From: Liolophura sinensis
Taxonomy: Eukaryota > Mollusca > Polyplacophora > Chitonida > Chitonidae
Direction: 5' to 3'
Length of the DNA stretch: 64,000 nucleotides
NCBI RefSeq assembly: GCF_032854445.1
Contig: NC_088295.1
Span: 40,785,385-40,849,384, forward strand
In this document: in pieces, positions 10,072-52,450 of the stretch
Numbering within the stretch: the first letter of the stretch is position 1
Layout: each line of letters begins with the position of its first letter
Made by a program: the position numbers and the translations under genes
Notes under the pieces: model-generated
The model's database searches: none
The model's input: the letters and a program-made list of their open reading frames with translations, nothing else
What the model was told of the DNA's origin: nothing

Positions 10072-10230
10072 TGGCAGGGAATATTTCATTTATACGACGG
10101 CGGCCAGAATTATGGTGGGAGGAAACCAGGCAGAGCCCGGGGGGAAACACACGACCATCCGCGAGTTGCTGGAAGATCTTGCCACGTACGGCCGCAGAGG
10201 GAGCCGGCATGAGCTGGATTTGAACAGTAA
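10072..10230 (-). mobile_element. SINE-1, head-truncated
   Basis: Minus-oriented body and 3' half (TTTATACGACGGCGGCC ... GCATGAGCTGGATTTGAAC). The tRNA-like head is missing. It ends about 100 bp upstream of the helix-3 opsin exon acceptor. The overlapping open frames are by-products. Confidence 0.85.
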
Positions 10231-10328: not shown

Positions 10329-10426
10329 GTATGGTTTCACTAACTTGTTTTTCGGACTGGCCTCACTGAACACACTGTGCGGGATTGCCATCGCTAGGTA
10401 TTTCACGGTGGTGCCACAGAAAACGG
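10329..10426 (+). CDS. Opsin, exon for helix 3
   Basis: This exon encodes the end of extracellular loop 1, helix 3 and the start of intracellular loop 2 of a retinal-binding GPCR. The translated text YGFTNLFFGLASLNTLCG then AIARYFTVV is typical of group-4 opsins (peropsin, RGR, retinochrome, neuropsin). The acceptor is TTTCTTTGTAG; the exon begins with the third base of a codon and ends one base into the next, at a GTAACT donor. That base completes an Asp codon with the exon at 23092, giving VVPQKT-DFTFNIRK. The D/ERY motif at the cytoplasmic end of helix 3 reads ARY, with no acidic residue. The preceding exon (helices 1-2, ending two bases into a codon) was not found in the 10.3 kb to the left. 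The alternative, a fragment of another rhodopsin-class GPCR, is unlikely given the retinal lysine downstream. Confidence 0.88.
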
Positions 10427-14348: not shown

Positions 14349-14571
14349 TGCTCAAGAATATGTCACTTATACGACGGCGGCCAATATTATGGTGGGAGGA
14401 AACCGGGCAATACCCACGACCATCCGCAGGTTGCTGTCTGATCTTTCCACGTACGGCGCGAGAGGAAGCCAGCATGAGCTGGACTTGAACTCACAGCGAC
14501 CACATTGATGAGGGGCTCCTAAGTAATTACGCTGCGCTAGCGCGCTAACAACTGAGACACGGAGGCCCCCT
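14349..14571 (-). mobile_element. SINE-1 inserted in the YR retroelement
   Basis: Minus-oriented SINE-1, lacking the A-rich tail and with a short deletion in the body (the ACCGGGCAATACCCACGACC junction). The head ends in ACGGAGGCCCC at 14571. Its position between RT and RNase H dates it after the retroelement. Confidence 0.9.
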
Positions 14572-19277: not shown

Positions 19278-19310
19278 GCACGTAGGTTCACAGGGGACAT
19301 TTTAAATGAA

Positions 19311-20101: not shown

Positions 20102-20362
20102 TATTTATTTATTTATTTGATTGGTGTTTTACGGCGTAATATTTCACTTATACGACGACGGTCTGCATTATGGTGGGAGGAAACCGGGCAGAGCCCGGGG
20201 GAACCCATGACCATCCGCATGTTGCAGCCAGACCCTCCCACTTACGGCCGGAGAGGAAGCCAGCATGAGCTGGACTTGAACTCACAGCGACCGTATTGGT
20301 GAGAGACCCCCTGGGTCATTACGCTGCGCTAGCGCGCTAAACAACTGAGCCACGGAGGCCCC
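20102..20362 (-). mobile_element. SINE-1, full length with TSD
   Basis: Complete minus-oriented element from (TATTT)n tail to GGCCCC head. It is flanked by the 13-bp duplication AAATAATGTTCTG at 20089-20101 and 20363-20375, so it inserted by target-primed retroposition and has stayed intact. Confidence 0.96.
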
Positions 20363-22550: not shown

Positions 22551-22749
22551 TAGAGTGCCAGCGTGACACAATGATGCGATCGCTGTGAGCTCAAATCCGG
22601 CTCATTCTCTGGACAAATCAGTCAGAAACCTGCGGATGGTCGTGGGATTCCCCCGGGCTCTGCCCGGTTTCCACCCACCATAATGCTGGCCGAAGCCATA
22701 TAAGTGAAATGTTCTTAAGCACGGCCTAAAACACCAATCAAACAAATAA
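22551..22749 (+). mobile_element. SINE-1, head-truncated
   Basis: From AGTGCCAGCGTGACACAATG through GGTTTCCACCCACCATAATG to the tail CACCAATCAAACAAATAAA. It is followed within 20 bp by another copy. Confidence 0.85.
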
Positions 22750-22768
22750 ATTCTGTCTTATCTTGTAG

Positions 22769-22951
22769 GACAATGGCAGGAGCTTCTCACCCATGCGGTC
22801 TCTCTAAGTTTAAGCTCAGCTTTTGGTTTCCCCCAGGCTCTGATGGGCTTTCTCGTATCATAATGCTGGCCACCGTTCTATAAGTGAAGTATTCTTGAGT
22901 GGGGGTAAAACACCATTTAGACAAATAAATAAACAATTAAATAAATAAATA
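22769..22951 (+). mobile_element. SINE-1, diverged, tandem to previous copy
   Basis: GGAGCTTCTCACCCATGCGG, GGTTTCCCCCAGGCTCTG and an A-rich tail ending AAATAAATAAAT. It is more diverged than the copy just upstream and ends about 140 bp before the helix-4/5 opsin exon. Confidence 0.8.
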
Positions 22952-23091
22952 CGAGGAGGCGTTGTTACATATGGCATATGTAGCAAATATGACATTCAAA
23001 GATGGCTTCTTTGTGATTGTGACCTATTTTAGGCCAACAGGTTACCAGGATTATCACAAATTAAACAATAGTTACTCTTCTGTCTTTTCAG

Positions 23092-23401
23092 ATTTTACAT
23101 TCAATATCAGGAAGTCTATCTGGTTGATTATCACAGGTTGGTTCTGGGCACTCTTGTGGTCTATTCTCCCAATCACAGGGTGGACAAAATACACGCTAGA
23201 GGGCGCTAAAACTTCATGCAGTATACAATGGCGCTCCGATGACAATAAGATTTTGTCCTACGTGATCTGCCTGTTCCTCTTCGGGTTTGTCCTTCCCACT
23301 GGCCTGATGGTCTATTGTTATGTGGGTATTTACCGTGCCATGAGAAGCAGGCCGGGAGGCTCAGTACTAAACTCTGCAGCTCAACGAAAAATTTATCTCA
23401 G
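23092..23401 (+). CDS. Opsin, exon for helices 4 and 5
   Basis: A 310-nt exon after acceptor TCTGTCTTTTCAG with donor GTAAGA. It starts at the second base of a codon and ends two bases into an Arg codon. It encodes the end of intracellular loop 2 (FNIRKS), helix 4 (WLIITGWFWALLWSILPITG), extracellular loop 2 with the conserved disulphide Cys (TSCSIQW), helix 5 (ICLFLFGFVLPTGLMVYCYV) and loop 3 (RAMRSRPGGS). A Glu lies six residues before that Cys, the position of the ancestral Schiff-base counterion (Glu181 in bovine rhodopsin numbering), expected in bistable and photoisomerase-type opsins. Reading frame upstream of 23092 is intronic. It joins in phase to either helix 6-7 exon, at 26892 or at 34868. 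Confidence 0.93.
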
Positions 23402-23539
23402 GTAAGATATCAGTCTCTAAGTCTGTGTGGGCGGTGACACAGAACAAAAAAAGTTAATTAAAAAAAAGTTATATTGTATCTATGGGTATATTGTACATTT
23501 GAATATATTGCATGTCCCAGTAAAGTATCATGCCGAAAA

Positions 23540-23700
23540 CACCAGACGTTACACCCCACCACTCACATTATACTGGCACCGGGCCAGTCAAAGATGGTTT
23601 TTTTTTTGGTCAGTAATAAGTAACATTTTATAAGTTCGGTATCACCCGCTACCGATTTCGAGGAGGGCGCTCTAGCCATTAGGCCACCGAAGCTGTCCGA
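23540..23700 (-). mobile_element. SINE-2 related fragment
   Basis: On the minus strand the head reads AGCTTCGGTGGCCTAATGGC-TAGAGCGCCC. The body matches the copy at 44690-44880 (GCCAGTATAATGTGAGTGG-type). Confidence 0.65.
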
Positions 23701-23975
23701 GTACATTGTGTCGATGCGTATATTGTGTATATGAGTATATTGTGCCAATGGATATATTATGCCTATGGATATATTGTGAATATGGACATATTGTACCCAT
23801 GAATATATTGTGTCTATGGACATATTGTGTCTGTGGACATATTGTGAATATGGATATATTGATGGGTATAATGTGAATATGGGCATATTGTACATATGAG
23901 CATATTGTACCTATGGGTATATTGTGCCTACGGGTATACTGTGCCTATGGGTATACAATACATATGGGTATAGTT
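23700..23975. repeat. ~17-bp tandem repeat
   Basis: About 16 units of the type ATATTGTG(C/T)CTATGG(A/G)(C/T). The minus-strand open frame across it is a by-product. Confidence 0.85.
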
Positions 23976-24484
23976 TCTTGGTTTGTCATGAAGAAAGTTA
24001 TCTCCACGATCGTCCAAATCTTCGCATCGAGAAACAGTAACTGAATACTCGAGTGTAATTTTCTGTATTCTGAATTTTCCTTTTTTATGGATTTGTTACT
24101 GTTTGTTTCACGGTGAAGCTATCTTAAGATTACCGAGATTAGTAAATAAGTGAAATATTGCTGTGGTTTTTGAGGTGTGTTCTAACTGTTTGTCACAATG
24201 TCTTCACAGCAGTATTGTCATAACTCTGCAGAAATTAGGAAGGGAATTGTTGTCAACTAAGTCAGCAAAATTTAAACCACTGCATTGATTATTCACCGAT
24301 GAACTTCAATTATATCTCCACGCATTCTTCCTTTACTACCGATTGAAATCAAAAGCAGTGATTTTGGGTGCAACTCAAATGTCCGAACCCATAACATAGT
24401 GTGTATAGATCGGCATCTGTCAAAGTTTTAAAGTGAAAGACAGCATCTGATCTACTGTCTATGTCCACTGAAAGACTACAATTC

Positions 24485-24532
24485 AAAATATCTTAGTGCG
24501 ACGTTAAACCAAAAGCATTCACTCACTCCCTC
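24485..24532 (+). mobile_element. SINE-2 3' tail fragment
   Basis: TAGTGCGACGTTAAACCAAA followed by CATTCACTCACTC is the plus-strand counterpart of the 3' end seen at 16945. Confidence 0.5.
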
Positions 24533-26891
24533 AAAATATCTTAAACCGGCATTAAATAGTTTTTTAGATTGTTTTCAACCCGGTAAATTTTAGTGAAACT
24601 TCGTCTCGACACAGCTTCAGCACGTCTCCCTTATCGAGAGCAAGGTGACGTCACGTTTACTATAGCTTTCTAGAATCGAAGTTATTTTCCGAATGCTAGT
24701 CTAAGCAGTAGGCCTAGCGTATGGCAGATAAGTTATGACTTAGGAGATGAGGGTCCAAGTGATAGATATAGTTTTCTGGGAAATTTGACATACATGGAGA
24801 ATATTTCTTCCACTGCTTGAGCTGTTGATACAGAAGGGCTACTATATCATTTACATGAAACTCCAGCGACCCTGTTTAAATAGCTTAGCTACAGATGAAC
24901 GACCATGGTATTCCTGGTTCAGGCCCTAGCCTCCGGGGAAGTCGGGGAGGGCGTGCTGATGATTTTGACCCGTATTACAGGTTTACAAAATTACAATAGG
25001 ATTGCTATACACCTCATGTCATGCTGAACAATTCTGACACAAATGGAAATAAATCTAAGCACCACTGAGGCTGATCAACGCATTTGACTGTCGCTGGATT
25101 TTATGCTTCAATTTTGCAACGGTAGCTCCTAAGATGAAAGCAGTGCTGACCTTGTTATCTCGGACATCAGAGAATGCATCTCGACTTGAATACAGCATTT
25201 CAATAATTTTATTGCATTTTATAAAAGAAACCAGAAAAACATCTCTTGTATGCGAGAAAGACGAAGGAGCAAAATTTAACAACATGTTCGATTGGATAAA
25301 ATTCACAAGATGGTTGCCTCGACTCACATCAGCAATTTGTGCAGGATTGTCATTTTGTTTTACAAATTATTCGGTAAATTCTCATTAAAACAATAAAGTA
25401 TGATGCTTTCTAGAAAGTTTAGTTTGTTTAAAGTCAATGTATAACAGCAGTAGACTTATAGTTCATATTTAATATACTGTTACGCAATATTATTTTTGGG
25501 CTGAGTACAAAATTGAAGACTTGGCTTCAAGTGAAATGTGGTATTAAGTATTAAAGCAGTTTTGAACAACTGGCCCTAGAACAACATAGCACAGGGTCAC
25601 ATGAGGCAAAGAAAAGGTTACCTTCATGTGATTATGTGAGTTTTATTCTGCATGAGGGTAAAACCTCAGCAGCTTTAAAAGGTTCTCTCCATTCTGCTGG
25701 TAAATAAATATGTGTTCATATTCACGATTTACCAGAAAAGGCTGACATTTGGTATTTCCCCTGTAAATTTAGAACACACGTGTAGTTTGTTTATCCTTTA
25801 CAGATAAACAAAACAACATACTTAATTTGTCTACCAAAGACAGGTACTTAACTGTTTATCTGACAAAGCGTCCGCCACTGATGAGCTGTTAGTTGTGTTC
25901 CTGTTGTGAATGGGAACCATCCAACTATAACGTGGCCGTTTGGCAACTAATGGCTGTCTCACTAGTTGGAGTAACCTCCTCATGAACGTTCCCATTCAAT
26001 GCACTTTAGACGAAAATGCGTTGGATGAATGCAATGGTATAAAATCCTACTTTATATTCTGAAATTCCGTATAAGTGGATTTTTTTAACCTGGCTCTGTG
26101 CCGTACAGATAAAGTACATGAATTTTTCAACGCGGGATGGAACGGTTGACCGATGTCGCTGCCTAACGAGTTTAAACGAATACGGCCCTCACCAGTGAAG
26201 ACCTTTCGTCCGATGTCGCGGCACGCAAACTCTTAAACTTAATCTAAGTAAGAAAAAAAATGGCAGTATTTTCCAGGACAGTTCAATGTAATCTCATTGT
26301 TGCATCGAATTTTTTTTTACATCTGACTTCCATTAAATACACGAGGTTTTCTTAAAATGGCAGTAGCTACCTTCCTAGCCTTACAGGAAGACTCCTTTCC
26401 GTTTTGGATTTGGTATGCTAATGCCATTCTCTGCGCGATCGCGCAGGAAGATTTTGTGCAAAAAGCTGTAAAAAATCACTTCTGCATGTACATAAATTGT
26501 AAGGGTGACTGTCAACTTTTGCAGTTGTCACAAAACGATATAGTTCACTAATTTATTCCATGCTGAATTTCCATCACTTTGACTTCTTCGCCTATTCTTA
26601 AATAAATCATTTTCGCTCTTTGCATTGGCGTCCTTTGCTTTGATTGCTTTAAACACGGACAATGGAACGATTCTCTATGGTAATAAGAGCAACGCCCTTT
26701 ACGAATTTAAGTTTAACCAAAGTGGCCGTGGTTTAGCACCATGTGATTTACTAGTGGAAAATGCAGACTACGCCGCGGGGTAGAAAACTGTATTTTGCAG
26801 TTTTTATACATTTGGTATTGTGATAGTAGGCCTAATCACTAGGGTAGAGGAAGCCAAAGTGCCAAGACAAGTTTTTTTTTTTCTATTCTAG

Positions 26892-27111
26892 ACAAACAAA
26901 AGTTCTGCGACTGATAGTGGGACTGACGCTGACGTATTTCATCACTTGGTTGCCATACACCATCGTAGCCATTATCTGCACGATAGGCAATTACAGCTAC
27001 CTGTCCACCGAGAGCGTCGTGGTGCCCTCCATGTTCGCCAAGTCCAGTACTGTGTGGAATCCAATCGTCTACGTTTTACTCAACTCAAGATTCAGGAAAT
27101 CTTACCGTGAG
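26892..27111 (+). CDS. Opsin, exon for helices 6-7 (copy 1)
   Basis: A 220-nt exon with acceptor TTTTTTTTCTATTCTAG and donor GTATGT. Its first base completes an Arg codon with the exon ending at 23401; it ends in phase 0. It encodes helix 6 (TLTYFITWLPYTIVAI, with the canonical Trp and Pro of the CWxP switch), extracellular loop 3, helix 7 with the retinal Schiff-base Lys (VPSMFAKSSTVW), an intact NPxxY (NPIVY), and the start of helix 8 (LNSRFRKSYRE). All landmarks of a functional chromophore-binding opsin are present. The next exon, in phase, is at 29184. A paralogous exon of the same length lies 8 kb downstream. Confidence 0.96.
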
Positions 27112-27372
27112 GTATGTGTGTCTTTCTTCTTAAGCCGTGGTGCTATGGAAGCGGTTAGTTCACAGCATTAAAGGCTATGACATCTAAAGTAAAACCTGAG
27201 AAGCGACCAGTGTGATAGCTGGCAAATGATGGTTTTTTTGAAGCACTGAAAGTTGACATTTTGACACATTAGATTTATGACAGTACGTAGGAGGTGGTTA
27301 AATTTCAATTTCTAGGGCGTCTAAACTTGAAGGTCAAATTTTTACGTATGTGAGAAAAAATGGCTTTGTAAA

Positions 27373-27400
27373 TTCGGCCTCATATTCATATGAGGCCGAA
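27373..27400. repeat. Perfect 13-bp inverted repeat (hairpin)
   Basis: TTCGGCCTCATAT and ATATGAGGCCGAA are exact reverse complements around a 2-base loop. A third partial copy (AGGCCTCATATCATATG) follows at 27405. It lies 260 bp into the intron after the helix 6-7 exon. No poly-T run follows. Confidence 0.85.
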
Positions 27401-27726
27401 AACTAGGCCTCATATCATATGCTTCTCTTTGCATGAATCCGCCCTAATTTTAACTTTATATACTTTCTTACTTCTTTGGTGGCTTGTGTTGAAAGCTGTT
27501 TTGTAAAATGGCGATTCTGCGATTATAGACCCGGAACGCCCATTTTGGTTAAAGGCTGGTACACGGACGTCCGTTTCTTGAGACATATACCCATATTTAC
27601 AAAGATTCCAAAATTGTAAGCGCATGTTTCGGATATGATTCTGTTCACAAATATAGCATGGAACGTAATTAACAGTATCATGGTGATGACCAGCATCATG
27701 ATGATGACCATTATCACTCATTACAC

Positions 27727-27971
27727 TCAAAAAAATTAATCAGTTCATTTTAACAGAAAGCCTGTTGTCTGAGCGATGTTAGAATATATTCTGTATTGCA
27801 GTAGATTATTCTGTTAAATATGACACACAAATTCAACATAGGAGTCTATTAAACTAACAGGATATTATGTTGAATATGAAAATATATTATGTTATAATAA
27901 CAGCATACATTCCAGTATCACTCAGATAACAAACTTTCTGTTAAAATTAACAGGTTAACTTTTGGAGTGTG
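27727..27971. mobile_element. MITE-like element, copy 2
   Basis: About 245 bp with terminal inverted repeats of about 60 bp: ATTTTAACAGAAAGCCTGTT at the left faces AACAAACTTTCTGTTAAAAT at the right, with CTGAGCGAT/ATCACTCAG inside. There is no coding capacity. It is the same family as 8960-9225. Confidence 0.75.
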
Positions 27972-29183
27972 TTGTCACACCCTTCGACATTTTCATTTTA
28001 GTTTTCATTTAGTTGTCATAACTTCACAAAGGCTGACCATAATAATAACTCCTCTATTTATTTATGTATTTATGTATTTATTTATTTATTTGATTAGCGG
28101 TTTGCGAAGTACTTAGTTTTACTTTTTCACTAATGCTATGCAGCGGTCAATTTTATGGGTGGGGGAAAACTGTCAGACATAGAAGTACAATACCTAACGT
28201 CTTCATTTAGAACCTGTATAAGCGGGCGTGTTTATTTCAACAACGGATATTATCGGTTAGGAGCAACTCGTCTTCCCAGAGAACCTTTTAAGCGGAACGG
28301 AGTGCCAAGATATATTAGCGTTGCCAAGGGATCAAGAGCTCTCGCCTATGTCACAAAAAATTCTTTTGCCTCGGTCCCGTATAAAAGAAACAGAAATTGA
28401 CCTTTAGAATTATATTTATTAGACATAAAAGGCTCCAGAAAGTATACAGTTCCATAAAAACTACTGGCTAATTCAGTGGAATCAGCGAACTCTGAAGCAT
28501 ATCATTCAGCCTGAAAGCTTTGTGAATTAGCATCTTTTCTTTTACCATCTTTCCTTAGTATTTGAGAAACTGGGTTAACTTTTATTCTATAAAATAATTC
28601 TTTGTTTCCTGTTAACGTTGCAACTATGATGTAGTCATAGACTGACTCATGCCGTGAAAAGTTGATTTAAAACATATTTATTTTATTACTGGTAGAAAGA
28701 TAAACGGGGTTAAAACAAACGTTAAGGTGGGTGTGTGAAATGTACATGCAGGATCTAGTCGTAAACTGTTAAAATTGTTCCCGTTGCGAAACTACCATCA
28801 TCACCATTTAATAACCATGATGTTTTTTTGCTTCACGATTAACATGTTTTGTCTAAAATCTAATGGACACATCAGTTTTCACCTGTGTATTGGGAAGGTT
28901 TGGGAAAATTGGTGGAACAGCGGGAAGCGGTTGAGGCTAGGGCCTGGCCAATAATCATCTATGTTGTCCACGATTACGGTCGTGTTGCGGCAGTAACAGA
29001 ATCTCTTCAGTGTGACATAAATCACAAGCCATATTATAACAAAGTTACATATATATTTAAAAATTAGTGACACTCTTGCATTGCAATGGTTACTGTAATT
29101 TGTTACTTTTGGTTTGACAAGTGTACCATCTTTGACTCACTTACAATGCGTTGGTTAGTCTAAAGTATTGTTTTCTTTGACAG

Positions 29184-29294
29184 ATGTTCGGAGAGTTTGG
29201 ATTTTGCAGGGGATCTAACATGAAGATGAGGGAGCATGAAATGGACACGCTCACAACAGCGCAGAATCAGTGCCTTAGCATTCACACTGCCTAG
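29184..29294 (+). CDS. Opsin, C-terminal exon with stop
   Basis: After acceptor TTTTCTTTGACAG a phase-0 exon of 36 codons ends in TAG at 29292-29294. It encodes the cytoplasmic tail (FGEFGFCRGSNMK ... LSIHTA). A Cys about 15 residues past the FRKS of helix 8 could be palmitoylated, as in many opsins. No PDZ-type ending was recognised. A possible polyadenylation signal AATAAA lies at 30428-30433, which would give a 3' UTR of about 1.1 kb; this is inference. Confidence 0.85.
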   Translation: MFGEFGFCRGSNMKMREHEMDTLTTAQNQCLSIHTA

Positions 29295-29984
29295 TGTCCA
29301 AACAGATCGAGGAGAACGGAAAAGGAGTGCTGCAAACTAGGAGTTACCGATTTCCCTCACGTATTCAGTTTGTGCAACGAAACGAGACGGAGTAAGGGCT
29401 ATGTGAAATGTTCGAGGAAGAGGATTTTTCGGCCTTAGACTATATACAGTTGTTATAGTGATCTTATAACAATAATCATGACCATGCTTCGTGAAACGTC
29501 AAAGAAAAACCCTTTTAACCTGGGACTTAATTCACATAAGTGCCTAGTTTCCATCACAGAATACGTTGAGACTTCGCTTGTGCCGAGCTAAAAGTGCTTC
29601 TTCTCTAACCGGAAGCCATGTTTGCACGGATGGTGTGTGGGAATGGTCGGTTACAGATGGTACCGTCTTACAAAAGAGGCTGTCGTGGATTTTACAGTAG
29701 AAAGACGATGATCTTACAGTCCCATTATGACTGCTGTCTCTGGGAAAACCTGTGATAATCTCTCACTGTATATATAAGAAATATATCTCTTCTACTGTGA
29801 TTTTTTGGGGATATCCGATAAAGAATGCTTTTCACCCCAGTGAACAATGTGTCATAACGCGAAAAACGCGTACATCCTGCATTAGTGTGTTGTTCTTTGT
29901 ATTGGCGTGAGTCGCTTACCCCGCAACCCTGTGATAAATATTTATGCGCATTGTACCCGCAGAAAATGTTTACCTGTGTAAGGG

Positions 29985-30190
29985 CTTGCACCAGCATGGC
30001 TGAACTGCTTATTGCCCTACACATGCATGACTCAACTGTGCCATATGGATACATCGCCCTGCACCTACATGGCTGAACAACGTATTGCCTTACATCTATA
30101 TGGCTGAACAATGTATTGCAAGACATCTGTATGACATAACAACGTGTGACGTTACATCTATGTAGCTGAACTGCGTATTTCACGACATTT
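29985..30190. repeat. ~33-bp tandem repeat, about 6 units
   Basis: Diverged units of the type ACATCTATATGGCTGAACAA plus (C/T)GTATTGC. They lie in the presumed opsin 3' UTR. The minus-strand open frame of 152 codons across it is a by-product of the repeat. Confidence 0.75.
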
Positions 30191-30824
30191 GTTTGCCTGA
30201 TTTACTTCCTGACCGACACTTTCTTGGCTGAAATGAAAACCTGACCCTTTTATTTCGTCTTTACCTCATTGTGTATTCTAACTGCATTTTAACCTCAAAT
30301 CTTAACACACAAGAATTTTGTTGGGCAGTATCCAAAAACTTTGGTCTATAACTAATTAAGGTTTTTGTTAAATTGTTATTGTAATTTTCTGGATACATAG
30401 TTACCTGTAATGACCATAGCTGTATATAATAAATAGATTTTATACTCGTAAGACAACGCAAACGGAGAATTTAGTAATACACCCATTCTAATGTATTGCA
30501 CATATTTTTATGAAATGTATTGCTCAACAATTGTGGAAATTTGATATTTACATGTATTAAGATAAGGGTTTTTTTGTGTAAAGGAGTTCAGGTCCAAGGT
30601 GTGCATTCTACAGTTCATTTCTCATTTCTAGTTTCTACACATAACTTAGTTTGTTGGTTAAGTGTTTAACCAAAAGAAAAATTCATAGCTTGTACCTGAA
30701 TCCCTTTGAGGTAGGAAGACCGTATTGCATGTCGTGTATGTCATGTCCAGTGCGTAACCATCGATGAATGCCTTTCATTAAATTATTCCCATTCCTATTT
30801 CAGTACGTATTTGTTTTCTGTTTC

Positions 30825-30910
30825 TTTTGGTTTTCTGTTGTTGTTTTTTTTTGTTATTGTTGTTGTTTTTTGGATGCTTGTTTTGTTTTGTTTTGTTGTT
30901 GTTGTTTTTA
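30825..30910. repeat. T/G low-complexity stretch
   Basis: Runs of TTTTG and TTG. The open frames on both strands here are compositional. Confidence 0.9.
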
Positions 30911-32587
30911 CATTCTAATGGAATACAAACACATTTTAACCTGTCATTGCGGTATATATTTAATGGCCATATTACAGAATACATTCTGCAAGTTTCGCCG
31001 TTGTAAACTGACCATATCAATATAACCGTTTTACAAATTTGTCATAAATGCATTAAAAGGATTAAAGGTACGTTACTATCAATGACTTGGGCAGCTGGCG
31101 CCGATTTCACAATTTCAAACTTCAGTTATAATATTTTGCACAATTTTAGACTTTTAATATCTACTTGCCCTAAAATAGTACTTATTTCTATATGTACGGC
31201 GTTCAGAAACAATCAAATAAAAAAATAAATGCCGTACTAAATAAAATAACACTTGTTTACGTCAAAGCCGGTTTTGTAGAATAAACCCTTCACACTTACC
31301 AACATGAGAAGTGTGAGCCATGAGACATCTAACATTATAACTGGTGACCCTGGTGCCCTTCCATTTGTGTAGGCTTAGATGTGAGATCTGTTTTATTTTT
31401 TCCATCTTAACTTTAAAAAATGTAGATATGTTCTCTTCCATTCATTAACCTGGAACCCAAACTTTTCGGGTGTGCTGTCCTCGATATGTCAAAGCTGGAC
31501 GCTGCAAAAACATGTTTTCTCTAACCCTGCCATAATCTTAATCATTCGGGAAAGATAAAACCATAACCTTTTATCACAGCTGTACCGGTTACATCAGTAG
31601 TAAACAAAACTTCATTAACCGCCATTTTCTATTCGAAAATGTCGTCCGGAAAAGAACTCGTGGAATGATTGGATTGAAACCAGTGATCTTTCTGTATCAT
31701 TCTGTAACGTTGAATTCAACGATCCGTCTGATCTCCATAATTCAACATAGATTTGGTGTAACATATACTGAAAGGCAAGTGTTGATATTTTGCTTCAAGC
31801 ATGCACTGTCTGCGATATTTCAATCACTTCATATAAAAATACTTCATTGTATGAGAAATTGTATTTCGAACCAAGAATGTGTCTCATGTTATATTATGTC
31901 TTGTGCTGTTTACTTGGCTACTGTTTGACTATTACTTCGCCAGTACAACGTAGGCTTTTACCTTGTGTTATGATATGGAGATTGTATCACATTAGATGAT
32001 AAATCTGACGCAAGCTGTTTAGGCCTACACATTTTGTCTATTCTTCTACCATGTAATGTATTAGTATTATTGAGTGTTACAACTAGATCATAAAGTAGAA
32101 CACATTTTGTCGGATTTGCTCAACAAACATTGAACCTATTCGCAAACGATCGTCCATATTATACACAACGTACAATCTTTTCACTACGAAACAAGGAGAA
32201 TTTACTCTCAACTCAATTTTCACTTGAATCATATTAAAATCAACGAGTGTCATAATTAACTATTTTAAACTACTTTGGGGGTGTTTCCTTATGGTACATG
32301 TTCTGTACAGTTTCATACAATATATCAAGAGAATGCTTTAACGTTGTTTTAGACTTATTTTTATCGTGCATATGTCAGGACATCCGGGTTTATAAGCTGT
32401 TCGAACATTTTACAACACGCTTTGCCCTTTAAAACATATAATATTATCATAACGATGTTTTTGTCATGTCTTTAGTTTTTGATCTGGAGTTTAGAATAAT
32501 GATTCTTCAACTTTTCAGACACCTGTCATGTGGTCAGAGTGTAAAAGACCCAGATGACACACTGTATAACGTTCACATGGCTTTATT

Positions 32588-32670
32588 CTGAAGAAGAATG
32601 AAAAGGGAATTTCGTTAGGACATAATCAAAACGTGGCGATCGTCTCAAGCATGGTAAATGAGTGCACGAT
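32588..32670 (+). repeat. 83-bp direct repeat, copy 1
   Basis: Starts CTGAAGAAGAATGAAAAGGG and ends AATGAGTGCACGAT. It matches 33310-33392 with two mismatches by eye. Confidence 0.9.
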
Positions 32671-33309
32671 TTAAATAACAACAAATCATAATTAATTTTC
32701 ATGGAACACTGTAAATTAAGTGAAATAAAGTAATACAGTGTGTTTAAATGAATTGTGACATGAGTTTGCTTTACACCAATATGAACTAAATGAAATAAAT
32801 CTATATATACTTATACAAGTTCACTCTACAAAACCCCTATACAACAAAAATATAGAAAGTTACAATATATTACACTTTCCAGACACATATTGTCCTTTGA
32901 CATTAAGAGTTAAGCCCCTTATTTCCATTATTCCAAAAGTAGTCACCCCTGTTGAAAGTATTCCATCAGGAGTTATCCCCCTTGTTTACATACTTTTGAC
33001 GTCGTACACATTCGTGGATTTCTACTACGAAATATGTAAAGAAATATTCCTCTAAGCCACTCAGGCTTTCTATCTAGCTTTACTGGAGTTACAAACTATT
33101 AAAAGACACAACTATCGTTAAATATATTGAACTAAAACTACTGTTATTTCAATCCGAAATCTAGCGAATGCGAAGCGTAACATTACGTAATGTTAATTAA
33201 ATGGAAACAACAACGACGTCTGAAGGTGACCGATAGACAACTATTTTTTAAGTTTATCTTCTAATTAATACAACGATGTGCTCATACAGGAATCTGCATG
33301 ATTACATAC

Positions 33310-33392
33310 CTGAAGAAGAATAAAAAGGGAATTTCGTTAGGACATAATCAAAACGTGGCGATCGTCTCAAGGATGGTAAATGAGTGCACGAT
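33310..33392 (+). repeat. 83-bp direct repeat, copy 2
   Basis: Starts CTGAAGAAGAATAAAAAGGG. The offset from copy 1 is 722 bp. The flanks do not match, so this is either a dispersed repeat end or a pair of short terminal repeats around about 640 bp of AT-rich DNA. Confidence 0.9.
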
Positions 33393-34867
33393 CCCACAAT
33401 CCTTTGCGTCTGAAGTCACGCTGTCCTAAACACACGAACACTCATTCCTTATGTTATTCATTACAGGTTATGAAAAATGCTAACAGAAAATTGTGCCACA
33501 ATGATAGTTAACAAAAAATGTTACAAAAGATGGTTACTTCACTGTGGTGAGATTGCACATGTATATGGGGCCTCACAAGAGCACATTGGCAGTTTCAGAA
33601 CACGGTGTGGAGACGTCTCCTGGAAAAATTGTCAGTGATTTGCTCCTTAACGTTCTTCAGACCTTATTCATACCCTTCTGACCAGCCTTAATGATTGTAC
33701 TCAGTGGTAGTTTGCACAGCATCAGAGTAATAGTCCGGAAATAATACATCTTGTAGTGGCAATTTTACCTAATACTTAGCCTGACCAATTACGCTAAAAA
33801 AACGACCAACGTTGTGGTTTGCTCCTGGACAAAATGAATGTGTCTGGGCCCAGTTATCAGTGAATTCCGGTTCAATTAGATAAAAGATGTCATACCAATA
33901 AAAAAAAAAACGCACTGGGCCGCCTGATTTATCTAATGCTCATTCAATTATAAGGAGAGTATATGGATAACTGTACCACTCAAGTGGTTAATCATCTAAT
34001 CCTAACATAAGCTGCCAAACTTCACAGAATTCATATCACATTTCACAAGAAAATGTGATCCATTTGAGGTAACAAGCTGCGGGGAATGCAGATTTCAAAA
34101 ACGCACCCCCACAATCAAGAACAATGACAACAACAGCAGCGTGTCTTATCGTCAAACAACAAATTTATCATGCTTAAACGCTTGTTGTGACGTCACTCTA
34201 TTCAGAAACTGTACTCTCTCTCTCAGCCATACTTGTCTAAATTCATCTGGCAGATTAGGTAATACATGTCGCCATACATAAAGAATAACAACTACAACTT
34301 ATAGGTCACGAACTATCTGCGCACTTCGTATTTCCACTCCCATCGCTAAACAAAGGAACTGTTTTTATGTAGCACTTATGCAATTGGTTAATGCGCCTCT
34401 TACTTATCCAGGATTGTACACTTACTCGGCCTTTCTCCACGCCAGAATTACCTATAATTTACGCAGTTATTCCACTTCATTATAGCCTAGCTATCCTCTA
34501 GTGTATTTAACAAGACAAAGGCAAAGGGTTTTAAAAATATCTTACCACAAGATACCACCAGATGAAGTTGTCCTGACCAATTCTCCTGTATCTTCAGCAT
34601 AGGTGTGTGCTTATATATAGATAACATGTAACTTATCTAAGGGTAAAGTTCCTATTCAGCATCAGGCATATACATAGACAAATTCATCATCGGCAGTGTT
34701 TCCATAATATTGGAATTATATACACTAATTTTCTCATATTATTATTATTAATAATATTATTTTTCTCATATTATTATTAATAAGTTGTAGTAACACAAAT
34801 GCAACCAAGGACAAAGTGAGACAAAAAGATTATCGATTACATTTACAATTGTTCTTTTTTTTCCCAG

Positions 34868-35087
34868 GCAGAGGAAAGTTCTGCTGGGAATCGTCGCCCT
34901 GACATTCACGTATTTCATTAGTATGGCGCCCTACACTGTTGTGGCGTTGTTGTGCACCGCTGGATTCTCTGACCCCCAAGGCTCGCTCACGGTGGAGATC
35001 CCATCGACATTCGCTAAAACTGGCGTCTTCTGGAACCGGATTATATACATCGTCGTCAACTCTACATTCAGGAAGAAAGTCAAAAAG
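34868..35087 (+). CDS. Opsin, second helix 6-7 exon (copy 2)
   Basis: A second exon of 220 nt after acceptor TTCTTTTTTTTCCCAG, in the same phase as copy 1, so the helix 4-5 exon can splice to it (AG+G gives Arg). By my alignment about 35 of 73 residues are identical to copy 1, with no gaps. It keeps the helix-7 retinal Lys (PSTFAKTGVFW). Two activation switches differ: the helix-6 Trp is Met (YFISMAPYT in place of YFITWLPYT) and NPxxY is NRIIY. The 3' boundary is a weak GT donor (AAG/GTTGAG); read-through instead adds 20 codons to a TAG at 35148-35150. It may be a mutually exclusive terminal exon, part of a partial tandem copy, or a relic. The intact frame and gap-free alignment argue against long neutral decay. 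Confidence 0.85.
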
Positions 35088-35426
35088 GTTGAGATTTCCA
35101 CAGTAAAATGCTGGTTTGAGTTGTTTAATTTTAAATGTACATGTAGATAAATCGCGCTTGTGCTCTCCATGTGGACAGTGCCGTTATTATGATAATCACA
35201 GTTAATGATATCTAAAGCATTAGGTGAGACAAGACCAGGAACTGAATTGAGGCCTGAATAGCTAGAAGCGGACGATTTGAGTATTTTTCAACGTTATGGT
35301 GATTAAAAAGAAGTTCTGAGTCTCGGGCCCACATGCTACAAAGCTGATTGTGCCGTCTTAGGCAAATCTTTGTACAAAGTCCATGATGACAACCTGTTTA
35401 TATGCAGGGCTAATACAATATTCATA

Positions 35427-35443
35427 AGTAAGTAAGTAAGTAA

Positions 35444-35483
<40 letters not shown>

Positions 35484-35521
35484 GCGTGTGCGCGTGCGCG
35501 TGCGGGTGCGTGTGTGTGTGT
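35427..35521. repeat. (TAAG)n and (TG)n/(CG) microsatellite
   Basis: Five TAAG units followed by about 75 bp of TGTG/TGCG repeats. The open frames of Cys-Val or Thr-His repeats are artefacts. Confidence 0.95.
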
Positions 35522-37574
35522 GAAAGGCCGAGTGAAAATCTGACTTTGCAGAAGTATTCTTTGCAATTTTTTACACCTAGTTATTTAAATCCAAACGCAC
35601 AGCACTCGACACGTTATGGCTGCACTAAAGTTGAAGTGGCACTAAGCCATAATCGTGCACTGAATCCCATCCCTTTGCCATCAGGGATTCTAACGGAACA
35701 GATAATTTCGTCCAAGCAGAACAATCCAAGTTTCTACCAATTGTAGTTTTCTATGGACATGACGTGAAAAGGTCTTAGAATTCTATATAGTTCCCACTGA
35801 GTGACAAATGTGATCTTGTTTTACAGTGTTGATATGAGTGCAAATATTGCTGCCATAACGTGGCTATAATTTCCTTGAATTGTTAATTAAACAGCGCAGA
35901 GGTCAGACTACAGCAGAAAACCCTATGCATACTCCTTATAGCACCACGGCCGCTCGTTCTACATCACTGCCACCAATTGACAAGCATGACCTTTGGAGCC
36001 GGTGGCGGGCTTGTTTAAACTTAACCTCATCACTGGTGTCATCAGCATTCATTAATAAAATTGTTCAGAAGTTGATTTGAATCATGTTGTACACACTTTA
36101 GATAGAGAGAATACATGTGTATATTGTATTATCTTATTATATTACCTAAGGCTGAGACAGAGTTTTTATGTTTTCTGACATAATTTGCTGCCAATATCCC
36201 TGTGACCCCATGCAGTGACCTCGGCGTTGTTCAAGATTTCAGTACAAAATTTGCTTTTGGTGGGAGTGTTGTAAAATGAACGTAGAAAGCAACGCATGCA
36301 CTGTAAAAAGTATGAACCCTATGCTTGTGGTGGTCCATTTCACGTTAAAGGATTAGCGTCCAGATTATTTATTCATACTAAACTACCACTGTATATATTG
36401 TTAAATTGAGTGCAAAAATATACTGGAACAAAATAGAGTAATCTGAGCAATATGGCATTAAAATCATTAGATAATGAGGCTGGGTTTATGCATTTTTCCG
36501 CCAACACTCGGTAATCTCCTCCGAATGACGTCATACAAGTCCAACCTTAACGAGATGTCAGAGCTTCGTTCACTGTTAAAAAGCCATGCACGTGACAACA
36601 AGTATGTCTAATTTCTCCACTAAATGGTTTGCCGTTCGCCAAAGAACCTTAGAGATAGTTTTTCCAAGTTTCCAGACGATTTGACCCTCAGGAAAGAGTG
36701 GACTCACGGCACAAGAAGGGTTTTATACCCACCAAACACAGCCAAGTCTTTGCCAAATCTTTTAACAGCATGGGCGGGGGTGGGGGGATTAGGCTGTAAA
36801 TATATGTATATAAACTCTGGTGACAGGGCTTGGTAGGTCTAAAGCAAAGCAGGAGCGCATTTTTCATTAGTTTGATCAATCTTGGGTGTACCGGTAAAGT
36901 GAAAGAAAAGTAAACACAACTAAGCGATGGCTTCCAATAAATGTTGCTTTGATACACGCTATCCCATTGGATGTGTCTCTTCTGTGAACCAGTGAGTGAG
37001 CTTCTAAAAAAAAATTGTGGACTGGGTACAATAACGCAATGGTCGTTTGACAGCTACGTCACTGATAGCAGTTTCCGACCGGCTACAGACGACGATTAAA
37101 ACCGAAAACAATGCAAAACTGATCATGTTGCTGGACTGCGTTAATCAAGAGTCAATGGCTAGGGTTGAAAAACTGGTTGTTGATAAATTATTCATGAATG
37201 GTGTTTTAATCTCTGATGCAGAATACAAATATTAACCACACTGCATGAAACAAAAAAGGATTAAAGCTACCTTTCATAATTCCTGTTTGACGTGCTTGAG
37301 TAAATCTGGCCATAATATGACTAGGAAAATTAAACAGTTGTAAGAATTTGTTTTCAGTATTGCCTTGATTAAATGTATGAAATTTATACCAGCAGACCCA
37401 TTTTCGAAGTAAATCCACTCCCTGAATAGAATGATATTTATTGCGAAGCGGACAGAAGTAAACAAAAGCAAATATTAAATCTGATATACACAAGAAATGT
37501 AGACATACAGTGTAACACCGGATAAGCTATAGCTTACCAGTCCGCATTGCCAGTGTGGTTGGACAAAAATCAAA
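35522..37574. other. Unassigned sequence
   Basis: No supported gene. A 62-codon plus-strand frame ending at 37235 (DRLQTTIKTENNAKLIMLLD) has a protein-like composition but no neighbour, splice signal or family I recognise. An AATAAA at 36054-36059 could serve a transcript ending in the second helix 6-7 exon. Confidence 0.45.
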
Positions 37575-37760
37575 TTAAACTTCTGAAAAGTCTGATGAGA
37601 TGTCAGTGTTATAAATCGGAACTTCAAAGTCATCCACTATGGGCTCAGATTGATACGGCAGTATATTTGCTTCTATGTAACTAGAATCCAATTCGAAAAT
37701 GACATCATTTTGATACGAATTCAGAGGTTATAAAGGTCAGCTAGACTTGGGTTGGCCATC
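37575..37760 (-). repeat. Dispersed repeat with coding-like frame, copy 1
   Basis: The minus-strand frame 37727-37575 ends in TAA and contains VIFELDSSY and SEPIVDDFEVPIY. The copy at 55502-55690 has VIFEMDSSY and NEPLVDDYAVSIY in the same spacing. The DNA is diverged but alignable on both sides of the frame. The family is unknown; it may be a decayed mobile element or a duplicated last exon. Confidence 0.6.
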
Positions 37761-38580
37761 TTTGACTTCACCCGTTCAGTTTTACCTGGGGGTCGGCTGG
37801 AGTCTAGGGTAGTAATTATTTGAAGATTTAAAAGCTTGAATCCATCGCATGTTCACCTTGCTTAGGTTTCTATACTTGTCTGCACATCTCCTTTAAATGT
37901 TGTAAGCATTAGAACATTCAAGAGCCACTTGCCTTCATCTAGCTTCTGAAGCTGGGAAATAGTTCCATTGAGGTGACTTTATCCGTTAATGTATAAAATA
38001 CTTTGTCATCATTGTGTATACATTCCATTTATTTTAATTAAATCAAAATGTGTAGTTTCTTTGGTTGATAGTTGTACTAATACATACACTGAAATGCTTG
38101 AATACCTGCATTAAATGAATGCTTTCGTTTTGTATTAAACAATGCTTTTCCCAATACATCGTATGAGGGCGGCCAGATTTAAGGTGTGAAAACGGAACAA
38201 ATAGCAGTACCTGAAGAAGTACCTGACAATTGTTCCGACATAAAATTTTCATTTATTGTTTACATAAAGTGATTGTAAATGTAAGATAATATTTATTGAC
38301 GTTTCTCTTTGAAATGATTAATAAATAAAGTTTGACTTGCCTGTTAAAATGCATTCTTATTATCATTTCAGTCCACACTTCTTGCCACACTTGAAACACC
38401 ATGACTATATTTCTGTATAACACCGCCCATCTCAGCCAAATTTTGATGACGAGATTCTTTATGACATCTGATTAAATCCAGTTTAGCTGAATGACATTGA
38501 CAAGTACTCAAAAACTATCGATAACGAATAGAAAATGTCGCAGTTAGATACAAGCTTTCATCGGGATAATTATTACTCCT

Positions 38581-38752
38581 TTTATTTATTTATTTGATAA
38601 ATGTTTACTCCGTACTCAAGAGTATTGCACTGGACGGCGGTCGGCATTAATGTGGGAGGAAACCGAGCAAAGCCGGGGGAAAATCCACGACCGACCACAG
38701 GTTACAGGCAGGACCTTCCCACATATGACCTGACAGGAAGACAGCCCTAGCT
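38581..38752 (-). mobile_element. SINE-1, head-truncated
   Basis: (TTTAT)n tail, GTACTCAAGAGTATTGCACT, GTGGGAGGAAACCGAGCAAA and GACCTTCCCACATATGACC are visible. The head is lost. Confidence 0.85.
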
Positions 38753-38830
38753 CTAAAACTATATATACTGCACAAGCAAAGAAACGAGACTTGGTAAGGT
38801 TTCTTGACCTTTAAGTGTTTGTGACAGAGA

Positions 38831-38900
38831 TTATTTATTTATTTATTTATTTATTTGGAGTTCACCCACGACCATCCACAGGCAGACCTTCCCACGTACT
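38831..38900 (-). mobile_element. SINE-1 fragment
   Basis: A TTATT tail is joined directly to CACCCACGACCATCCACAGG and CAGACCTTCCCACGTAC, so the middle of the element is deleted. Confidence 0.75.
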
Positions 38901-39027
38901 ATGATACAGATGATCATTGTATACTAACAGAAATTTTAAATATTATGGCATGCATCGTATAGTTAACGACTGGTTACAGAGTTATCTCACTAACTTAGCG
39001 CAATGTATCTCCTTTAATAATTAATAA

Positions 39028-39654
39028 TTTTTAGATGAACTTACTAGTATTAACAACAAAGTAAATGACTCGGAGAACGCTGTGAAATCCACTTGCGAAT
39101 TTGCGGATAAAGTTGGCTCAATAGGTGAAAGTTTGAAGGTTATGGCCTCCCAGTTGACTGAAGTCCGTGCCGAAAACAATCCCCTTCGTGATAACCTCGA
39201 TGACATAACAATTCATTCCATGAGGGAGAACCTGCTGTTTCATCGCATCGTCGAACAGTCGGAGGAAAACTGTGAAACCCTCGTGCAGGAGTTTATTACA
39301 AAACATCTTGAAATACCAAATGCATGTTACATCAGTGTTGACAGAGACCATCGCATAGATATAAAGAGAAATGACAGATTTAGGCCAGTTGTTACAAAAT
39401 TCACCTATCATAAAGACAAAGAAGCTGTCAAAAATAAGTCCTTTGCTCGGAGATTTTATTTGAAAGAAGATAAACTTGGGGTTAGCGATCAACTTCCTGG
39501 CGAAGTTCACTTCGACGTAAAATGCTCATGCCGGAGTACATCAAGGCCAAGGAACGTAATCTGCATGTACGGTAGCAAGGGAGAAGACTATTCGTACAAA
39601 GTCTCGAGATACAACTACCTGGTACGGCAAACAACGGTGGAGAGCGTCATATGA
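39028..39654 (+). pseudogene. LINE ORF1 (RNA-binding, L1 transposase-22 type)
   Basis: The frame is open from a TAA at 39025 and reads LDELTSINNKVNDSEN onward: an N-terminal coiled-coil-like part, then SMRENLLFHRIVEQSEENCE, an RRM-like part (YISVDRDHRIDIKRNDRFRP) and VVTKFTYHKDKEAVK, ending in TGA. This is the trimeric RNA chaperone of L1-type elements. The start codon and any 5' extension are missing or lost, so it is truncated at the N-terminus relative to typical ORF1p. The frame itself is intact for 209 codons. Confidence 0.85.
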
Positions 39655-40026
39655 ATATGGGGCGAGATCGGAACAGAACAGAGGGACTGTGGGAATAGAC
39701 TGAAAATTCGTAACTGGAATGTAGATGGACTGACACAAAGAGTTAAAAGGGAATATTGAGTTTTGTGATTTTATAACAGATAATGATGTGTTGTTTTTTT
39801 TTTCTAGAAACATGGACAGCTAAAAATAGCAAAGTTGAACTTCAAGGTTACAAACATTTCCATTCGTACCATTAAATATGTACACAAGTGTGCAAAAAGT
39901 CACAGTGGTGGCATTGTGGCATACGGTAGAAACGAAATAGCAAGTGGGGTAAAACGTGCGAAGAAACAGGACTGGTGTATCTGGCTGAAGTTTGACAGAA
40001 TCTCCTAGTTTAAGAATGACGTATAT

Positions 40027-40533
40027 ATGTGTGCTTTATATATATCCCCGGAGAATTCAGCTGATTATAATATAGATTGTAATAATCTGTTCGACCTTTT
40101 ACAAACTGATATAGATCATTTCTCATGTCTAGGTGTGCTAATAGCCGGAGGCCTCAATGCAAGGACAGGTGGTTGCGCGGATCATGTAAACGACGATTGT
40201 GTAACATTATTTGATGACATCACCTTGTTGCATAACACGTGTTATCCACCGTCATCTCAAGACCACAAAGTTAACTCATTTGGGACGCAATTAACTGACT
40301 TGTGTGAGGCAACCGGTTTTCACATTTCTAGTGGCCGTTTTGGCAGTGATAAAGATATAAATATGTTTACATTTGTGAACTCGTCAGGTCGAAGTGTTAT
40401 CGACTATTTATCATTTAATCCGAACATTTTTTTCTATGGCGAGTCAATTCAAAATATGCGAAATAACAGAATTGTCACCACAAGCTCCTCTTCATTTTTT
40501 CGAATTGCCAGTGGAAGGCCGTATCAATTATAA
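40027..40533 (+). pseudogene. LINE ORF2 endonuclease fragment
   Basis: Apurinic-type endonuclease region. CALYISPENSADYN precedes LIAGGLNARTGGCADHV, where the family has GDFN/GDLNART; the catalytic Asp of this motif is Gly. VNSSGRSVIDYLSFNP is the S-x-x-DY block. The endonuclease start (RNWNVDGL) lies about 320 bp upstream in a broken frame. It nicked target DNA in the ancestral element. It is inactive here. Confidence 0.85.
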
Positions 40534-41377
40534 TGATAATGCTGATCATTTAGAAAAAAATTATTTGGAATGATGACCTGCGTGATGGATTTATTTTAAA
40601 ATTAGGGTCTGTCAGTGATGAGCTTTTGACATATGTAAACTTTACTAACGAAACTGTTACTCTGGACAGTGCAAAACTTAACTTCGCTCTTGTAACATGT
40701 TGCAACGCCTCTGTTTAAGAAACGGTTTACCATACGATCCAGTCAAGTAAGTTTCCATAGTTGTGTTTCGACGGACAGTCGCTGGTTTCATTTGAAGTGT
40801 AAAATTTGTAAGCCTGATTTTAAAAATGCTCTCCAATAGTATACCAGATCACACACGGATATCGACAGAATTTTGATGTATGGGAAGAAAAGAATATACT
40901 GATTAATATGAATGGTTATTTGTCAGGAGATTGTATAGTGGAAGAATTAGTCTTGCCCTGTAACGTACGCTGAGACTGAAATAAGTATACACAACCTTAA
41001 GTGTAACAAATCACATGGAAGCGATTTGCTTTTGAATCTGTTTTTCAAGACCAACTCCAATATACTTATATCCGTGTCTGAAAATCTATTTAATAATATT
41101 TTTGACACAGGGCAATTTCCCAGTTTATGGCCCGAGGGTATTATTCTCCCGATACATAAGAAAGGTGATACTGAAAACGTAAGTAATTATCGGGCAATAA
41201 CTCTTACAAGTTGCCTATCTAAACTGTTCACAAATTTTTTGAATACGAGACTAATTAAATGCTCAAATGAGTATAACATTATATCCGATGCACAGTTTGG
41301 TTTTATAAAAGGTGCAGGCACAATAGATGCAATATTTGCTCCCCGTGTATTATTGTCATCCTATATTCAACACAATA

Positions 41378-41647
41378 TTTATTTATTTATTTATTTGATT
41401 GGTGTTTTACGCCGTACTCAAGAATATTTCACTTATACGACGGCGGCCAGCATTATGGTGGGTGGAAACCGGGCACAGCCCGGGGGAAACCCACGACCGT
41501 CCGCAGGTTGCTGCCAGACCTTCCCACATACGGCCGAAGAGGAAGCCAGCATGAGCTGGACTTGAACTCACATCGACCGCATTTGTGAGAGGCTTCTGGG
41601 TCATTACGCTGCGCTAGCGCGCTAACCGACTGAGCCACGGAGGCCCC
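41378..41647 (-). mobile_element. SINE-1, full length, inserted in LINE RT
   Basis: Complete minus-oriented element. The 12-bp target duplication TTCAACACAATA lies at 41366-41377 and 41648-41659. The protein-like frames across it on both strands are by-products. Confidence 0.97.
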
Positions 41648-41903
41648 TTCAACACAATAAGCGTGCTTACTGTGCCTTCATCGATTAAAAAAAAGCCTTT
41701 GATTCGATTATTAGACAAAAGTTATAGTACAAACTGTTTAAAAGTGGTGCCAGAGGTACATTATCAAATATAATGAAGTCATTGTATAATGACGTAAAGT
41801 CTTGTGTTCAACACAATGATATAGTTACAAGCAGCTTTATCTGTGATACAGAGCTAAGACAGGGAGAAGTTCAGTCTCCCATTTTATTTACACTATTTAT
41901 AGA

Positions 41904-42163
41904 TTTATTTATTTATTTATTTGATTGGTGTTTTACGCCGTACTCAAGAATATTTCACTTACACGACGGTGGCCAGCATTATTTTGAGTGGAAACCGGGC
42001 ACAGCCCGGGGAAACCCACGACCATCCGCAGGTTGCTGGCTGACCTTCCCACGTGCGGTCAGAGAGGAAGACAGCATGAGCTGGACTTGAACTCACAGCG
42101 ACCGCTTGGTGAGAGACTCCTGGGTCATTACGCTGCGCTAGCGCGCTAACCAACTGAGCCACT
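41904..42163 (-). mobile_element. SINE-1, full length, second insertion in LINE RT
   Basis: Minus-oriented, with target duplication ACTATTTATAGA at 41892-41903 and 42164-42175. It is 256 bp from the first insertion and in the same orientation. Confidence 0.96.
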
Positions 42164-42502
42164 ACTATTTATAGACGACTTAGAATTGTATTTACTAGAT
42201 GGATACAACAGCTACATTGAACTCAGTGAATTGTCTACTTTTCTACGTTTGTGTGCAGATGATTTGATTTTATTTTCTGATTCAGTAGCTGGCCTTCAAA
42301 GTTCCTTGAATTATCCACATACTGCAAAGACTGGATAAAAGTAAGGTCATGGTGTTTCGCAAAAGAGGTGGGCTCAGATCTGATGAAAAGTGGACATTTA
42401 AAGAATAAAGATTCTAGATTTGCATACTTAGGGTTGATATTTACACCGAATTGTAAGTTCTGTTCTGCACTGTAAACACTAGCAGACAAGGGCATACGAG
42501 CA

Positions 42503-42874
42503 TTGTATGTACTTACAAATCAAGTGTGTAGGTTAAAATTAGATTGTAACATTAAATGTGATTTATTCGTTTTACACATTTGTAGGATCCAATTTGAATT
42601 ACTCTGTGACCTTTGGGGCTTCCATTCAGCTTCTTCTATTAAACGTATATATCGTAAGTTCTGCAAAAGTACTTCAGGAGTAAATGTGTCCACACCAAAG
42701 GCCGCAGTGTTCGGGGAATTGGGTAGAATACCACTATCTTATTCGCGAATTTATAGAATTGTGAAGTATTGGTTTAAATTGCTAGCAACATATAATGGTA
42801 TATTGGCTAATGTGTACAAAAAATTACATTATTTATCGGTTAATGGGTTTGATAATCTTAATGCGAAATGTTGA
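42503..42874 (+). pseudogene. LINE ORF2 C-terminal fragment
   Basis: A 123-codon frame after the RT. LKLDCNIKCDLFVLHICR and FELLCDLWGFHSASSIKRI look like the post-RT region of mollusc LINE ORF2s that I recall; the later part (YCNLNDIEDQFHFILVCPIY-like, about 43150-43215) continues in another frame with the FHFILVCP zinc-knuckle-like ending. Confidence 0.65.
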
Positions 42875-43735
42875 ACAGGTTGGGTTTTACCCAGATATTT
42901 TTGTTCCCGCATTCTGTTTGTGTTAACGCTTTTTCTTCCAAAGCTCAAACAGAAACTGATAGATACATACAATGCCGAATGGCACGTACAAATACAAATA
43001 CCTCAAAAATGATTTTGTCTTTGAACCTTGTTTGAAGAATATATATCAAACTCTAATCACAAAAAGCGCTAACTAGAATCAGAACTTCATCGTACAAGTT
43101 AAAAGTAGAGCCTGGGAGACATGGTAGAAATAGAGTTGAGCGTAAGGTAACAAAATATGAGAAATGCAATTTAAATGACATTGAGGATCAATTTCATTTT
43201 ATATTAGTATGTCCGATCTACACCGATCTCCGGAGATGTTATATCCCGAAGTATGATCTAAAAGCCTCAAGTGTGTTCAAATGTACTGAATTCCTATCGT
43301 GTAGTTCCAAACGGGTTCAAAATAACCTTGCAAAGTATATTTATCTTTCAGTTGCATTAAGGGGCGAGTTGTGTTGAGTGAAAAAATATTTCATGTTCAT
43401 TTAAGTTGTTATACAACAGTCAATCCTCACTTTTGTGTTTAAATAGTTTGCTGTCATTTCTAATGTATCCTGTTCCGCACTAATATTGCTGAAGATGTTT
43501 TGGCGAGAAGGATGTCTGCCTAAGCCTGAATAAAATCTATCTATATAATAAAATGCTTTCTATAATCCGGCTTTGGTTCACTGTGGTGTGCTTCAAGGGT
43601 ACGTATACAGACCTTGTTACCGAGGAATGTAATCGAAGAGGTAAAATAAATTCTAGACTTATGTTTGACAAGATCTCTCATATTATTGTGAAAATACCTC
43701 ACACAATATTGGTATTCTAAATAATCGTATCACTA

Positions 43736-52207: not shown

Positions 52208-52450
52208 GTGCACAAATATTCCCCTCTCCCCCAGGGAATATCATTCTCACATCTCGTTCTGAAACATGGCCCTCGGCTTAATCTCAGTAAAACACTCTGT
52301 GGTCGAAATTTGCCAGCATCAGAGCAAGAAATCGCCGTTTTAAAAGTTAAAACCCTTCTGAAAATTTCTTCTGACGAAGATTTTCTGTCTGTATTTAGAA
52401 AAAACCATGCCACAACACTCGATGCGGATGAAACCGGGCTCCGACACTAA
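52208..52450 (+). pseudogene. Unidentified intronless frame, part 2
   Basis: 80 codons in another frame, 62 bp after part 1, ending in TAA at 52448-52450. KYSPLPQGISFSHLVLKHGP, LNLSKTLCGRNLPASEQE and ISSDEDFLSVFRKNHATTLD are protein-like. If the two parts belong together, one frameshift separates them. Family unknown. Confidence 0.35.

Follow-up and report, generated by a model that had tools for sequence, protein, structure and literature searches.

A probable bathyopsin-like gene of the chiton Liolophura sinensis with two candidate alternative exons for the retinal-lysine helices

Exon anatomy of the locus

The window analysed here is a stretch of 64,000 nucleotides of the Liolophura sinensis genome (contig NC_088295.1; C1:40785385-40849384). 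The sequence examined comprised the window and 100 kb on each side of it, 264 kb that contain no N. The following exons and candidate exons of an opsin were found, the segment for TM6, TM7 and helix 8 being present twice:

Exon 1, -5269 to -4956 (L018:4731-5044; C1:40780115-40780428): TM1-2 with the start codon, placed by a weak match to bovine rhodopsin
Exon 2, 10329..10426, plus strand: 98 nt, TM3 with ARY, placed by a scan for TM3
Exon 3, 23092..23401, plus strand: 310 nt, TM4-5, common to both forms, placed by a rhodopsin match and splice sites
Exon 4A, 26892..27111, plus strand: TM6-TM7-helix 8, with K296, NPIVY and the tripeptide NSR
Exon 4B, 34868..35087, plus strand: TM6-TM7-helix 8, with K296, NRIIY, W265M and the tripeptide NST
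Candidate shared C-terminal exon, 52235..52450, plus strand: phase 0, 71 codons and a stop, beyond exon 4B

Exons 4A and 4B (hereafter A and B) are each 220 nt long, are preceded by AG and followed by GT, and are open in the same frame, although the equal length and exit phase of B follow in part from taking its GT as the donor, and that donor is weak. They align without a gap, with 35 of 73 residues identical (47.9%; E ~2e-19 in a search of the window), so that the pair of 220-nt exons in one phase and at about 48% identity described in the sequence-only reading of this DNA is real. One base completes the entering codon in both, and both are left in phase 0, which in B rests on the weak donor. 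Exon 3 ends two bases into a codon and joins either exon in frame, the junction codon being AGA with A and AGG with B, both of which encode Arg; the same reading was thus correct in holding that the single exon for helices 4-5 can be joined to A or to B. The two exons differ by 0.76 at synonymous sites, which is saturated, and by 0.34 at nonsynonymous sites. An assembly or haplotype duplicate is excluded by the protein identity of 48% together with the saturated synonymous sites. Duplication of a whole block was also rejected, as the sequences 3' of A and of B gave just short, weak or repeat-like matches.

Exon 1 lies 5.3 kb upstream of the window, with its start codon at -5269, and was recognised by a weak match to bovine rhodopsin (E 0.038). 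Exon 2 was the top of the 266 phase-compatible pieces in the TM3 scan, with a score of 27 against 14 for the runner-up place; ends at 10426 and 10450 score equally from the same start, and the former gives the 98 nt of the bovine exon. When joined, the four exons amount to 314+98+310+220 = 942 nt, that is, 314 residues without a stop, with A or with B. The joined protein scores 152.8 bits against the Pfam family 7tm_1 with A and 138.0 bits with B (cut-off 30.5), which by sequence gives it the class A seven-helix fold of animal opsins; in the B form, the 7tm_1 match extends no further than residue 276 and does not reach TM7. Of the two exons searched singly, A hits 7tm_1 with an E of 1.2e-5, which does not reach the curated cut-off, and B hits no Pfam family even at E 1, while a PDB search with B recovered rhodopsins at 2.2e-5.

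Given this anatomy, we believe that the locus is likely to be one bathyopsin-like gene with two alternative, mutually exclusive TM6-7 exons. Exon 3 leaves two bases and A and B each take one and leave none, so that either A or B, but not both, can be present in a full-length product: joining A to B shifts the frame and leads to a stop at codon 332, and the frame also shifts if neither is used. Against this reading stand the weak donor of B, its faster change, its truncated Pfam match and its loss of two conserved residues.

Several other features lie in and near the window. A tandem array of 52 copies of a 21-bp unit (18182-19278) occupies part of the intron between exons 2 and 3 and is open in some frames of both strands. 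Open pieces at 39028-43374 resemble a non-LTR retrotransposon; one of them (40951-41562) weakly matches a reverse transcriptase (E 1.4e-5, which falls short of the cut-off), and the other four pieces tested have no such match. A short dispersed repeat with the recurring translation TTAASIMVGGNRAEPGG... occurs on both strands at 7118-7240, 10094-10228, 14371-14490, 20154-20303, 41437-41559 and 41986-42084, and also in the flanks. Downstream of exon A there is an inverted repeat of 64 nt (27731-27794 with 27900-27963, 80% complementary). Finally, two near-identical open, coding-like stretches of 553 codons lie on the minus strand 91-97 kb upstream of the window, about 4.2 kb apart (L009:2888-4546 and L009:7065-8723).

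Splice signals and the 3' end of the gene

Splice sites were ranked across the scored stretch, with an acceptor matrix composed by hand. The donor of exon 3 ranks 1 of 4090 and its acceptor 12 of 3708; for exon A, the acceptor ranks 8 of 3708 and the donor 28 of 4090. Exon B combines the top acceptor of the stretch (1 of 3708) with a weak donor (1504 of 4090). Among repeats of at least 24 nt, none links A or B as a base-pairing element for exon choice, and RNA family models gave no match at the gathering threshold at 22000-40000.

It had been claimed that A leads to a C-terminal exon with a stop. We could not confirm this, as no phase-0 terminal exon stood out between A and B by acceptor score or codon usage. 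Beyond B, the acceptor of 52235-52450 ranks second in the scored stretch, and at least 71 open codons follow just 93 of 3704 AG sites. The codon usage of this candidate is not coding-like, since 361 of 991 null windows equal or exceed its score, and it has no Pfam or PDB match. A and B may be spliced to a shared last exon, for which 52235-52450 is the candidate, and would then be internal mutually exclusive exons. The earlier proposal of mutually exclusive terminal exons therefore stands in part: alternative use is favoured by the single visible upstream set, the equal entry phase and the frame rule, whereas the description of the exons as terminal is unproven.

The rival explanations overlap in part with the reading of one gene with alternative TM6-7 exons, and the first of them is one form of it. 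In this explanation, A and B would serve as alternative last exons, with each running on to its own stop (27169-27171 and 35148-35150, respectively) and having its own polyadenylation. Beyond A and B, the frame is open for 19 and 20 codons to a TAA, the hexamer ATTAAA is present at 27848 and 35302, and the poor donor of B also speaks for this explanation. However, open runs of 19 codons follow 1439 of 4050 GT sites, and the run-ons themselves are not coding-like, given that 3801 of 12861 null windows score as high as that of A and 8978 of 12154 as high as that of B. In addition, the donor of A is a good one, and the GT of A and that of B stand at the equivalent place when aligned by eye. On balance, we consider it unlikely that A and B each end the protein in this way.

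Residues and constraint in exon B, and the search for a second gene

In bovine numbering, K296, P267, Y268, N302 and Y306 are kept in both A and B, so that the retinal-binding lysine of animal opsins is found in either form. The shared exons carry the equivalent of E181 (in LEG) and a Tyr at the position of E113, as judged by eye from alignments. Motifs of the E/DRY and NPxxY type, taken together, are usual in animal opsins, if not universal, and are found together in neither form: ARY is common to both, followed by NPIVY in A and NRIIY in B. With ARY in place of E/DRY in the shared TM3 exon (10329-10426), the acidic residue of that motif is absent from both forms. The substitutions in B are W265 to M, P303 to R (NRIIY), R252 to L and S298 to G, and the tripeptide is NST where A has NSR. 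Two residues that rank among the most conserved in the region, W265 and the proline of NPxxY, are thereby lost from B. The toggle residue is W265, and the shape of TM7 depends on P303. From W265M and P303R, we infer that the B form probably still binds retinal, with its G-protein coupling altered or lost.

These losses also bear on the possibility that B is a relic, either of a duplicated exon or of a tandem gene copy of which the rest has been lost, and that it is unspliced or decaying. The weak donor and the failure to find a C-terminal exon adjoining B would suit a relic, as would its rate of change. In a small tree (11 rows and 62 columns, with three of the nine own-genome paralogues, L033, L035 and L036, left out), A and B pair at 90/95, and the branch of A has a length of 0 and that of B 2.04; the tool flags the long branch of B, and no branch attained its 95/80 mark. 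On the other side, exon B has no stop or frameshift, its acceptor is the best of the stretch, and, under a codon usage model trained on eight of this genome's GPCR genes, A and B each outscore every one of 2432 open intronic windows, which overlap one another. Exon B has a GC3 of 0.67, whereas its 1-kb flanks have 35% and 41% GC. Simulated neutral drift at 0.2 changes per site leaves the exon free of stops in 23% of runs, which taken alone would allow for a relic, but leaves it intact in just 0.7% when indels are assumed to make up 10% of changes. Since B also appears to be present in a second chiton, as discussed below from parts of a published survey, we think a relic quite improbable.

Across the window and its two 100-kb flanks, the queries detected one TM1-2 exon and one TM4-5 exon, which bears out, over a larger stretch, the earlier observation of no second helix 4-5 exon between A and B. 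The genome searches score just the best candidates. With exon 1 as the query, 143 matches were obtained at E up to 10, of which the top one after itself has 35% identity (4.9e-14), and weaker ones reach 39-41% over shorter, partial stretches. With the TM3-7 query (150 of 219 first-look candidates scored), no match besides itself that covers TM4-5 exceeded 35% identity among the 130 matches listed at E up to 1. Exon B gave 11 matches, namely itself, A at 49% (9.0e-16) and nine weaker ones from 6.9e-6. By eye, other opsins of the same genome, such as L031 and L032, have their TM6 intron elsewhere and no intron after helix 8.

As no second nearby TM1-2 or TM4-5 exon was found and A is the sole close relative of B, there is no other visible gene to which B could belong. 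That B is part of a second opsin gene, with TM1-5 exons too diverged to be seen or lost in an assembly gap, is in our view very improbable: the limited candidate scoring and the partial exon 1 matches of up to 41% speak for it, but the TM1-5 exons of a sister gene would be expected near the TM6-7 level of 49%, the top other matches reach 35% for exon 1 and, among the matches listed, 35% for TM4-5, and the 264 kb hold no N. A separate upstream set of opsin exons feeding 34868, which the sequence-only reading had raised against its own proposal, was thus found neither nearby nor, at the expected similarity, genome-wide.

Chiton bathyopsins and a proposed model

McElroy et al., 2023 described, in Acanthopleura granulata, the one chiton of their survey, two opsins that fall outside the seven molluscan types and group with bathyopsins, and the tripeptides of the pair are NSR and NST (PMC10733189). 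In the part of that survey concerned with them, the sequences derive from automatic gene prediction followed by a screen for K296, and the same sequences are said to have been called c-opsin by De Vivo et al., 2023. The two tripeptides are identical to those of A and B, and neither is carried by any of the nine other TM6-7 matches in the Liolophura genome. Through this link of two tripeptides, we believe that the A/B pair probably exists in Acanthopleura too, where it was counted as two opsins. The main text of the survey contains neither 'splic' nor 'isoform', and its parts on these sequences mention no shared locus. The Acanthopleura sequences thus resemble A and B in coming from a chiton, in number, in tripeptides and in having K296, and differ in being listed as two predicted opsins, with the comparison made by tripeptides alone. 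By the same match, the gene described here is probably of the bathyopsin kind, a class borrowed from that survey. A peropsin- or neuropsin-like class, our first guess from human sequences, was dropped in favour of the bathyopsin match.

Among other systems, the bathyopsins of sea urchin (opsin2) and Lingula (peropsin-like A) belong to the same small and ancient opsin group and share introns among themselves; in contrast to the present gene, and comparing by description only, no duplicated exon is mentioned in the passages on them (PMC5648526). The ecdysis triggering hormone receptor of insects is a class A receptor that likewise has two homologous alternative late exons in one gene, giving ETHR-A and ETHR-B, but it is a peptide receptor whose alternative exons, according to the section describing them, account for 74-77% of the coding length and run to the end of the protein (PMC8291126). 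Opsin splicing that touches TM6 is known from the RGR-d variant of human RGR opsin; however, that variant is described as lacking most of TM6, as inactive and as arising without a duplicated exon (PMC9368030). In the literature that we searched, by titles and abstract openings, no opsin with mutually exclusive exons or such splice variants is reported. This agrees with the earlier remark that no such opsin arrangement was known, with the qualification that, going by what the survey says of Acanthopleura, its products have very probably been predicted there already, as two bathyopsins.

Based on these observations, we propose the following model for the gene with two alternative TM6-7 exons. 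Exons 1-3, encoding TM1-5, would be common to both products. The exon for TM6, TM7 and helix 8, with the retinal-binding lysine, would have been duplicated long ago within the gene, and its copies A and B would be used singly. Splicing of exon 3 to A would give an opsin with the ordinary W265 and NPxxY. Splicing of exon 3 to B would leave the first five helices unchanged, place a Met at the toggle position and an Arg within NPxxY, and exchange helix 8 for another. Both splices would be expected to occur, differing by tissue or by stage. One gene might in this way yield two receptors that sense light alike and signal differently. Tentatively, and with more doubt than conviction, we suggest that the choice of TM6-7 exon could produce a signalling bathyopsin with A and, with B, a retinal-binding form that is silent towards G proteins or differently coupled to them, for example a photoisomerase or a decoy.

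Counts of opsin diversity are counts of genes. If the proposed arrangement is true, splicing of the retinal-lysine helix could alter the function of an opsin while its front half is held constant, which would amount to a natural domain swap within one pigment gene, and the published count of two chiton bathyopsins would become one gene. The group concerned is one of small, ancient and little-studied opsins, here in animals with light organs borne in their shells. Furthermore, A and B represent a ready pair with which to probe the roles of W265 and NPxxY.
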